A stretch of 47,847 bases of DNA from Bacteroidota bacterium (GTDB lineage: Bacteria > Bacteroidota > Bacteroidia > Chitinophagales > Chitinophagaceae). Below the pieces are notes generated by a model that saw only the letters and a list, made by a program, of their open reading frames with translations, had not been told where the DNA came from and searched no databases. How positions within the stretch are numbered: the first letter of the stretch is position 1; the number at the start of each line of letters is the position of its first letter. The stretch is from positions 1-47,847 of the forward strand of contig SXWI01000039.1 of the NCBI GenBank assembly GCA_005791465.1, written 5' to 3'. Below are positions 6,322 to 38,375 of this stretch, piece by piece. Both the position numbers and the translations under genes were made by a program.

Positions 6322-7509
6322 TTACTTCAGAATCTCGGTAACCTGTCCGGCACCTACAGTACGTCCACCCTCACGGATAGCGAACTTAAGACCTTTTTCC
6401 ATCGCAATAGGCTGAATCAACTTAACAGTAAAGTTGGTGTTATCACCAGGCATTACCATTTCAGTTCCAGCAGCCAATTCAACTTCACCAGTTACGTCCG
6501 TTGTACGGAAGTAGAACTGAGGACGATACTTCTGGAAGAAAGGAGTGTGACGTCCACCTTCTTCTTTGCTCAGTACGTATACCTCAGCTTTGAATTCAGT
6601 ATGCGGAGTGATTGATCCAGGCTTCACGATAACTTGACCGCGACGGATCTGTGTTTTTTCAACACCACGTAGCAACAGTCCGGCGTTGTCTCCAGCTTCA
6701 CCTTCATCAAGGATCTTGCGGAACATTTCTACTCCTGTTACTGTTGAAGTCAGCGGATCAGGAGTCAAACCAACGATCTCAACTGATTCACCAACTTTAA
6801 TACGACCACGCTCAATACGTCCTGTAGCAACAGTACCACGACCTGTAATAGAGAAAACGTCCTCTACAGACATTAGGAATGCCTGATCAACTGGACGGGG
6901 AGGTAATGGGATAAAAGTATCAACAGCCACCATCAGTTCTTCAACTTGCTTAACAGCAGCTGCATCACCTTCAAGTGCTTTGATTGCGGAACCTTTGATG
7001 ATAGGTGTGTTAGCACCATCAAAACCGTAGAATGTCAACAGGTCGCGGATTTCCATTTCAACTAGGTCGAGCAATTCTAGATCATCAACAAGGTCAACCT
7101 TGTTCATGAATACAACAATCTTAGGTACGCCTACCTGACGTGCAAGCAGGATGTGTTCTTTAGTTTGAGGCATCGGACCATCCGTAGCAGCCACAACAAG
7201 AATAGCACCGTCCATCTGGGCGGCACCAGTAATCATATTCTTTACATAGTCAGCGTGACCAGGGCAGTCCACGTGAGCATAGTGACGGTTTTCAGTTTGG
7301 TACTCTACGTGTGCTGTGTTGATTGTGATACCACGCTCCTTCTCTTCAGGGGCAGCATCAATTTCATCATACTTCTTGGCCTGGGCCATACCTTTTGCAG
7401 CCAAAATTGTGGTGATGGCAGCAGTCAGGGTAGTTTTACCATGGTCGATGTGCCCAATGGTACCTACGTTAACGTGGGGTTTGTCCCGCTTAAAGGTCTC
7501 TTTTGACAT
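6322..7509 (-). CDS. tuf: elongation factor Tu
   Basis: [53 protein letters not shown]. Confidence 0.99.
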
Positions 7510-7568
7510 TTTTATCGGTTTTTAGGTTGTGTTGACAATTTATGTTTACTAAATTCTTCAAATCCTTG

Positions 7569-7640
7569 AGCCGTTGATGAGAATTGAACTCACGACCTCG
7601 TCCTTAACAAGGAAGTGCTCTACCCCTGAGCTACAACGGC
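7569..7640 (-). tRNA. tRNA with Thr-like body and GTT (Asn) anticodon (see findings)
   Basis: GCCGTTG TA GCTC AGGGGTA GAGC A CTTCC TTGTTAA GGACG AGGTC GTGAG TTCAATT CTCAT CAACGGC T. Anticodon GTT; one 28:42 T:C mismatch in the anticodon stem; discriminator T. Confidence 0.85.
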
Positions 7641-7681: not shown

Positions 7682-7754
7682 AGCGGGAGACCGGGCTCGA
7701 ACCGGCCACCTGAAGCTTGGAAGGCTACCGCTCTACCAAATGAGCTACTCCCGC
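7682..7754 (-). tRNA. tRNA-Gly (TCC)
   Basis: GCGGGAG TA GCTC ATTTGGTA GAGC G GTAGC CTTCCAA GCTTC ... CTCCCGC T, followed directly by genome-encoded CCA (7679-7681). Confidence 0.92.
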
Positions 7755-7836: not shown

Positions 7837-7919
7837 TGGGCAAGGATGGATTCGAACCACCGAACTCCGAAGAGGACAGATTTACAGTCTGTTGCCGTTG
7901 GCCACTTGGCTACTTGCCC
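7837..7919 (-). tRNA. tRNA-Tyr (GTA)
   Basis: Class II tRNA: GGGCAAG...ACAGA CTGTAAA TCTGT, long variable arm CCTCTTCGGAGTTC, CTTGCCC A. Confidence 0.95.
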
Positions 7920-7925
7920 GCCTTG

Positions 7926-7998
7926 AGCCACCTGCCAGAATCGAACTGGCGACCTACTGATTACAAATCAGTTGCTCTACCAGCTGAGCTAAGGTGGC
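7926..7998 (-). tRNA. tRNA-Thr (TGT)
   Basis: GCCACCT TA GCTC AGCTGGTA GAGC A ACTGA TTTGTAA TCAGT ... AGGTGGC T. Confidence 0.95.
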
Positions 7999-37265: not shown

Positions 37266-38375
37266 ATGAGCAAGAAGGGTAAAGTATTGGTAGCGATGAG
37301 CGGTGGTATTGATAGCACCGTTACTGCACTTTTATTGCATCAGGAGGGGTACGAAGTAGTAGGGATTACCATGAAGACCTGGGATTATGCAAGCAGCGGT
37401 GGTGGAAAAAAAGAAACTGGCTGTTGCAACTTGGACTCCTTCAATGACGCTCGCCAAGCAGCTGTAGAGCACGGTTTTGCGCATTATATTTTAGATATCC
37501 GCGATGAATTTGGAGGTTTTGTAGTGGAGAACTTTGTGGAGGAATATCTGGCCGGACGAACCCCCAACCCCTGTGTACTTTGCAACACACACATCAAATG
37601 GAGGGCCCTGTTAAAAAGAGCGGATGCATTGGGATGTGAATTTATAGCCACGGGTCATTATGCAAAAGTTCGTCAGCACGATAATGGACGTTTTGTAATT
37701 AGCAAAGCGGTGGACAATACCAAAGACCAGAGCTATGTGCTTTGGGGACTGCAACAAGATTTACTGAGCCGTACCTTGCTGCCACTGGGAGGATTTAGAA
37801 AAACAGAAATCAGAAAAATGGCTGAGGAGTTTGGCTACCCTGCTCTGGCAAAAAAAGCAGAGAGCTACGAAATATGCTTTGTACCTGATAACGATTATCG
37901 TGGTTTTTTAAAACGAAATGTAGACGGTTTGGAAGAACGCGTTAACGGTGGTGATTTCATTGATAAAAATGGAGCTATATTAGGTAAACACAAAGGATAT
38001 CCCTTTTACACAATCGGACAACGAAAGGGGCTAGAAATAGCATTAGGAAAACCGGTGTTCGTAACACAAATTGATCCCCATAGCAATACGGTCACGCTAG
38101 GAGATGAGGAGGATCTGGATAAAAACGAAATGTGGGTTTCAAAATTAAATTGGATTAAATACCCACAGGTAGAAGACGGCGTTGAAGCCACAACAAAAAT
38201 TCGTTACAAAGACACAGGAACACATTCTCGCTTATATACACAGGCCACTAACGTCCGTGTAGAATTCTATGAACCTGCCAAAGGGGTTGCTCCCGGACAA
38301 AGTGCCGTGTTTTACGAGGGGGATGATGTACTCGGTGGCGGCATCATTCAACGTGAAGCATTTGAAAAAAACTAA
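37266..38375 (+). CDS. mnmA: tRNA-specific 2-thiouridylase
   Basis: VLVAMSGGIDSTVTALLLHQEGYEVVGITMKTWDY, GRTPNPCVLCNTHIKWRALL, ATGHYA, DQSYVLWGL. Confidence 0.97.
   Translation: MSKKGKVLVAMSGGIDSTVTALLLHQEGYEVVGITMKTWDYASSGGGKKETGCCNLDSFNDARQAAVEHGFAHYILDIRDEFGGFVVENFVEEYLAGRTPNPCVLCNTHIKWRALLKRADALGCEFIATGHYAKVRQHDNGRFVISKAVDNTKDQSYVLWGLQQDLLSRTLLPLGGFRKTEIRKMAEEFGYPALAKKAESYEICFVPDNDYRGFLKRNVDGLEERVNGGDFIDKNGAILGKHKGYPFYTIGQRKGLEIALGKPVFVTQIDPHSNTVTLGDEEDLDKNEMWVSKLNWIKYPQVEDGVEATTKIRYKDTGTHSRLYTQATNVRVEFYEPAKGVAPGQSAVFYEGDDVLGGGIIQREAFEKN

Follow-up and report, generated by a model that had tools for sequence, protein, structure and literature searches.

Alloacceptor shifts of tRNA genes are almost unknown in bacteria: the survey of Rogers and Griffiths-Jones (2014) detected one in 61 Enterobacteriaceae, and anticodon position 35 is the commonest site of such shifts generally (PMC3923123). 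Other related systems are tRNA-ProX of Streptomyces and Kitasatospora, in which a proline body carries A34 anticodons and A33 and a dedicated ProRSx is encoded adjacent to it (PMC11415595, PMC10365949), and tRNAs with a 4-bp anticodon stem, in which a terminal pair is open and near-cognate codons are read (PMC13092985). The E. coli glycine tRNAs mutA and mutC are laboratory mutants of a multi-copy tRNA, unfixed in the species, in which a chromosomal anticodon mutation leads to reading of another amino acid's codons (PMC4790301, PMC7822408).

The tRNA genes described here are classed, from sequence comparison, as alloacceptor-shifted, mixed-identity tRNAs. As in the shifts found by synteny, a gene in an orthologous slot differs in its anticodon by a single base at position 35, but here three switches, all at this position and all in single-copy genes, are found in one genome. 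As in tRNA-ProX, one body carries the anticodon of another tRNA together with features that weaken decoding, whereas here the anticodons have G34, U33 is kept, three different bodies are involved and no dedicated synthetase was found among the ORFs neighbouring the switched tRNAs; membership in the tRNA-ProX system was rejected, since the proline body has GTG and U33 and its neighbouring ORFs lack a synthetase. The chromosomal anticodon mutation and the predicted reading of foreign codons are shared with mutA and mutC, but here single-copy tRNAs are changed. The loss of one anticodon-stem pair recalls the 4-bp-stem tRNAs, but the pair lost is internal (28:42 or 29:41) and the anticodon is changed as well, the 28:42 mismatch of the tRNA preceding tuf lying one pair inward from the stem end and not at the terminal pair.

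The window, the whole stretch of 47,847 nucleotides that was analysed, is contig C166 of the genome G000, a draft of 1,477,431 bases in 169 contigs with 86% completeness. Judged by its gene order and tRNA sequences, it probably belongs to an uncultured Bacteroidota-like bacterium. Its genes follow the order Thr(TGT)-Tyr(GTA)-Gly(TCC)-GTT tRNA-tuf, which the sequence-only reading had recognised, with the GTT tRNA as the last of the tRNA run and EF-Tu at 6322-7509(-). The features are as follows.

7926 to 7998, minus strand: tRNA-Thr(TGT), normal, presumed reader of ACN codons and the sole other tRNA-Thr found in the assembly
7837 to 7919, minus strand: tRNA-Tyr(GTA), cluster member, identical in the nearest relative
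7682 to 7754, minus strand: tRNA-Gly(TCC), cluster member, identical in the nearest relative
7569 to 7640, minus strand: tRNA with a tRNA-Thr body and a GTT (Asn) anticodon, differing from the orthologous tRNA-Thr(GGT) by G35>T and A42>C
7606 to 7608, minus strand: anticodon GTT of this tRNA (plus strand AAC), coordinates counted by hand and good to one base
7607, plus-strand coordinate: position 35, the anticodon middle base, counted by hand and good to one base
7600 to 7600, minus strand: position 42, where C (plus strand G) replaces A and causes the 28:42 U:C mismatch, counted by hand and good to one base
6322 to 7509, minus strand: tuf (EF-Tu), downstream of the tRNA cluster, recognised by translation and with a conserved spacer

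For the tuf-proximal gene (GCCGTTGTAGCTCAGGGGTAGAGCACTTCCTTGTTAAGGACGAGGTCGTGAGTTCAATTCTCATCAACGGCT), ARAGORN called a minus-strand tRNA with the anticodon GTT at 7568-7640. The gene matched Rfam RF00005 at 7569-7640(-) with 63.5 bits, where the gathering score is 29, and over model positions 1-71 of 71, so that a full-length tRNA cloverleaf above the gathering threshold is present and a chance match is excluded. The anticodon loop is TTGTTAA, the acceptor stem opens with G1-C72 and C2-G71, the discriminator base 73 is T (U), and 28:42 (U:C) is the sole unpaired stem position; folding of the tRNA by itself gave this stem mismatch and nothing further. The loop, the acceptor pairs, base 73 and the mismatch had been read from the letters alone, and this description is accurate; ARAGORN and Rfam agree that the tRNA is complete. 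A 28:42 mismatch (U:U) is also present in tRNA-Gly(TCC) at 7682-7754, here and in many relatives, and an internal stem mismatch alone is therefore tolerated here.

The threonine-like body that had been proposed was measured against the tRNA-Thr(GGT) of the nearest relative, G022, which served as the reference for the tRNA changes, and two differences in 72 nt were found, at positions 35 and 42. The slot before tuf was read in 29 same-genus and same-order relatives, and every one of these syntenic orthologs had GGT; GTT in this slot was found only in G000 among the relatives compared. In the cluster alignment, conservation extended over the leader, the three neighbouring tRNAs and the spacer to tuf, and just two bases differed within the tRNA. 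Body, slot, leader and spacer thus match the tRNA-Thr of the relatives, with G34 and U36 kept, base 35 changed to U and one stem pair lost, and the anticodon is the GUU of tRNA-Asn instead of the NGU of tRNA-Thr. With a syntenic ortholog, an anticodon of another amino acid and a change polarised by the relatives, the gene appears to be the ordinary tuf-proximal tRNA-Thr(GGU) gene whose anticodon turned GUU in the G000 lineage among these relatives, and the earlier suggestion of a mixed identity with descent from tRNA-Thr(GGT) is upheld.

Two further tRNAs of the same genome are changed at the same position. The only tRNA-Leu(GAG) reads GCG (Arg) in a long-arm leucine body (C4:33690-33773, L024), and the only tRNA-Pro(GGG) reads GTG (His) in a proline body with an intact stem (C4:22900-22973, L019). 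Compared with G022, the leucine gene has A35>C and T41>G, the latter yielding a 29:41 A:G stem mismatch, and the proline gene has G35>T alone; outside these changes and the two of the threonine gene (G35T, A42C), each of the three genes is identical to that of G022. Both genes lie on the long contig C4, which is syntenic with contig C5 of G022, and the possibility that the switched genes are unrelated extra copies was rejected, since by synteny each occupies the locus of its normal counterpart. The leucine gene was GAG in 29 of 29 relatives fetched (in one of them the gene finder left the anticodon uncalled, but the loop is TTGAGGT) and the proline gene was GGG in 29 of 29, and for the three tRNAs together normal anticodons are kept across about 40 relatives. 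Three tRNAs of four-codon boxes (Thr, Leu and Pro) would therefore each have been switched at anticodon position 35, the position that is reportedly also changed in E. coli mutA and mutC. As a separate observation, about 1.6 kb directly downstream of the switched tRNA-Leu (C4:32077-33676) has no alignment in G022 and contains a 361-aa ORF in which YSFDGTTWTTVSSNTPA-like units are repeated.

A total of 24 tRNA genes was found in G000, and most of the other comparable tRNAs were identical to those of G022, with two changes forming one compensated pair in tRNA-Asn and a single transition in tRNA-His, a true copy of which is present separately at C103. Of the eight differences from G022 counted over all comparable tRNAs of G000, three were at position 35, in three different tRNAs (P ~1e-4 for at least three of eight under a model in which tRNA changes are evenly spread). 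The other two changes in the switched genes also fall within the anticodon arm, while acceptor stems, D-arms and T-arms are untouched. For each of the three switched GNN tRNAs the UNN partner of its four-codon box is present. Loss of all GNN family-box tRNAs was rejected, since the genome keeps normal Gly(GCC), Val(GAC) and Ala(GGC), which belong to this class; Ser(GGA) sits at a contig break.

It had also been proposed that the tRNA at 7569-7640 could be a recruited tRNA-Asn, in which case AsnRS would charge it and the cell would have two working tRNA-Asn. The gene finder assigns it to Asn, the anticodon is a major AsnRS determinant, and a transplanted anticodon together with G73, the other asparagine identity element, confers asparagine identity on another tRNA (PMC9976931). 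This speaks for recruitment as far as the anticodon is concerned, but base 73 is U and not the G used by AsnRS, and pair 1:72 is G-C and not the U-A of tRNA-Asn. In addition, the genome already has a conserved canonical tRNA-Asn(GTT) as a separate gene (C71:26-99, TCCTCCTTAGC...GGGGGAG), and the relatives, which have GGT at this locus, do not carry the same sequence as their sole tRNA-Asn. Recruitment would also leave the Leu and Pro switches unexplained, the bodies of which clash with the ArgRS and HisRS rules, and we regard it as very improbable.

The distribution of the switches was determined in other genomes. In a scan of 84,980 species genomes, the threonine body with GTT was found in two others, a rumen Bacteroidales (L182) and a member of the Campylobacterota (L183):

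L182:4727-4799: threonine body with GTT in the rumen Bacteroidales, at the end of a Thr-Tyr-Gly-tRNA run
L183:2936-3010: threonine body with GTT in the Campylobacterota, likewise last in a Thr-Tyr-Gly-tRNA run

The gene in L182 directly precedes an open frame with a tuf-like start (MAKETFQ). Both L182 and L183 have their own tRNA-Asn, tRNA-Thr(TGT) and a normal Leu(GAG), and neither Leu(GCG) nor Pro(GTG) was found in them. The Pro(GTG) and Leu(GCG) patterns, each searched in 399 genomes of the order, were found in none beyond G000, and Pro(GTG) was absent from the viral contigs searched. With two further genomes carrying it, the Thr switch appears to have arisen at least three times, and the triple switch was seen once. 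A phage origin of the tuf-proximal tRNA was considered and rejected: the nearest phage tRNAs were 76-88% identical over part of the query only, no phage record spanned 80% of the query, and the gene is in the syntenic slot of the relatives. Two side observations were made, namely a phage tRNA with a tRNA-Thr-like anticodon stem-loop and the anticodon GTT on an IMG/VR contig (L184:5560-5635), and a tRNA-Pro with an AGG anticodon (A34), unusual in bacteria, in a rumen Bacteroidales (L202:1501-1573, G066).

An artefact was considered, in which the assembly would be wrong at the three anticodon positions and the two stem positions, owing to sequencing, mixed strains or polishing, while the true anticodons are GGT, GAG and GGG. 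The fragmentation and incompleteness of the assembly are consistent with this, as is at least one chimeric contig end: at the end of C10 (L257:5722-5822), the anticodon loop of a tRNA-Ala(GGC) runs straight into about 90 bp of secA (Pfam SecA_SW, 4.5e-12), and the other part of this tRNA-Ala, with a normal GGC anticodon, is on contig C42. Furthermore, each of the five tRNA changes swaps G with T or A with C, bases that four-colour Illumina sequencing confuses; calculated post hoc, this outcome has a chance of 3e-4 under the genome's own spectrum. Codon usage, too, has not responded to the loss of three tRNAs. On the other side, random errors would not pick position 35 three times, the remaining tRNAs are clean, and two other assemblies also show the Thr switch. 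None of 62 matched orthologs was broken except at contig ends, and amino-acid changes specific to G000 are no less conservative than those specific to G022, with a mean BLOSUM62 of 0.73 in G000 and 0.74 in G022 against -0.43 for random single-base changes (24 genes), so that protein sequence quality argues against a general base-call error.

The mutation spectrum was also compared as a cause of the tRNA changes. C>A (G:C>T:A) was elevated about 1.6-fold in the G000 lineage (184/1733 vs 107/1523 in G022, P 3e-4), alike at synonymous and nonsynonymous sites in the window and C4, but T>G changes were not elevated genome-wide, and the spectrum of the genome therefore does not explain the tRNA changes. 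A mutator arising by loss of mutY was set aside as well: no mutY match was obtained, but the rng-mutY-gldE-gldD locus, 7.5 kb in all, is missing from the assembly, and nothing can be concluded from it. Taken together, the indirect tests on base correctness favour real bases, and an artefact is considered rather unlikely.

To reveal consequences of the switches, substitutions were counted against G003 in 167 orthologs at 37,453 sites in conserved surroundings. At these sites no clear excess was observed for Thr>Asn (18 vs 13 reverse) or Pro>His (3 vs 2 reverse), and Leu>Arg was 5 vs 0 reverse with just one CGY codon. In the three-way polarised set, T>N, P>H and L>R were 2, 0 and 0 in G000 vs 1, 0 and 0 in G022. 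Pyrimidine-ending codons make up 57% of Thr (ACY), 61% of Pro (CCY) and 53% of CUN Leu codons (CTY) in G000, near the values of the relatives. Codon reassignment was rejected, as AAY, CAY and CGY show no clear excess at conserved Thr, Pro and Leu sites; neither recoding nor avoidance of the affected codons is indicated by these comparisons.

A decayed tRNA-Thr(GGT) was among the earlier suggestions. A further rival is inactivation, in which the UNN tRNAs would read each whole box, and the three GNN tRNAs would have been disabled by anticodon mutation, uncharged and without a new function. All three affected tRNAs are indeed GNN members of four-codon boxes with a UNN partner present, stem mismatches are found in two of the three, and the threonine and proline tRNAs lose G35, a synthetase determinant (PMC9976931). 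Superwobble can make such a tRNA dispensable, as tobacco chloroplasts survive deletion of tRNA-Thr(GGU) by U34 superwobble of tRNA-Thr(UGU), with a growth cost (PMC3499367). However, decay should scatter changes, and here all fall in the anticodon arm with perfect acceptor stems, D-arms and T-arms; simple decay fits poorly with three of eight differences at position 35 and untouched bodies. Moreover, leucine charging is independent of the anticodon, so Leu(GCG) would stay unsilenced, the Gly, Val and Ala members of the same class are unaltered, and pyrimidine-ending codons are still the majority for Thr, Pro and the CUN box of Leu. Inactivation is thus judged improbable, and together with an artefact it remains a serious rival of the mixed-identity reading.

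The explanation we favour, tentatively and with somewhat less than even confidence, is that the three genes encode genuine lineage-specific mixed-identity tRNAs which are weakly charged and misdecode at a low level, with ACY codons falling to tRNA-Thr(UGU). The Thr(GUU) tRNA would be transcribed together with tuf. Threonine identity resides in the acceptor stem and a threonine anticodon (PMC9976931), and since G35 is lost and the asparagine G73 is lacking, the tRNA is predicted to be a poor substrate for both ThrRS and AsnRS. A small charged fraction, mainly with Thr, may read AAY codons in competition with the true tRNA-Asn and cause low-level Asn-to-Thr mistranslation, and the 28:42 mismatch would weaken the tRNA further; the stem mismatches of the Thr and Leu tRNAs should both reduce ribosomal use. 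In E. coli, leucine identity lies in A73 and the tertiary core and ignores the anticodon, so that Leu(GCG) is probably still leucine-charged and could put Leu at CGY codons, whereas proline identity involves G35, G36 and the acceptor end (PMC9976931), and Pro(GUG), probably poorly charged by ProRS, could cause some low-level insertion of Pro at CAY codons. The mixed-identity reading is favoured by the otherwise untouched bodies, unlike those of decaying genes, and by the recurrence of the Thr switch in two unrelated genomes in the same slot. The stem-weakening changes in two of the three tRNAs may be comparable to the attenuating loop changes of mistranslating tRNAs (PMC11415595). Against it, no trace of consequences is apparent in codons or substitutions, no dedicated synthetase lies next to the tRNAs, the species is represented by one draft genome, and the five G/T or A/C swaps could hint at a technical cause.

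A further proposal, which we consider doubtful, is that the three switched tRNAs have become fixed and work jointly, with no synthetase of their own, as leaky missense suppressors or as a cause of mistranslation across the proteome. Thr would then be placed at Asn, Leu at Arg CGY and Pro at His codons, and the normal GNN decoders of three boxes would have been given up.

In bacteria, tRNAs encoded by a single gene copy very rarely undergo an anticodon shift, and finding several such shifts together suggests that they share a cause. Should the bases prove wrong, the case is a caution that tRNA annotations of draft metagenomes may mimic code changes. Should they prove right, either mistranslation of three amino acids is built into this organism and tolerated, or three of its codon boxes are decoded in the absence of the usual GNN tRNA while all codons are still used. 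Both outcomes would bear on the ways in which tRNA identities and the genetic code may be altered.
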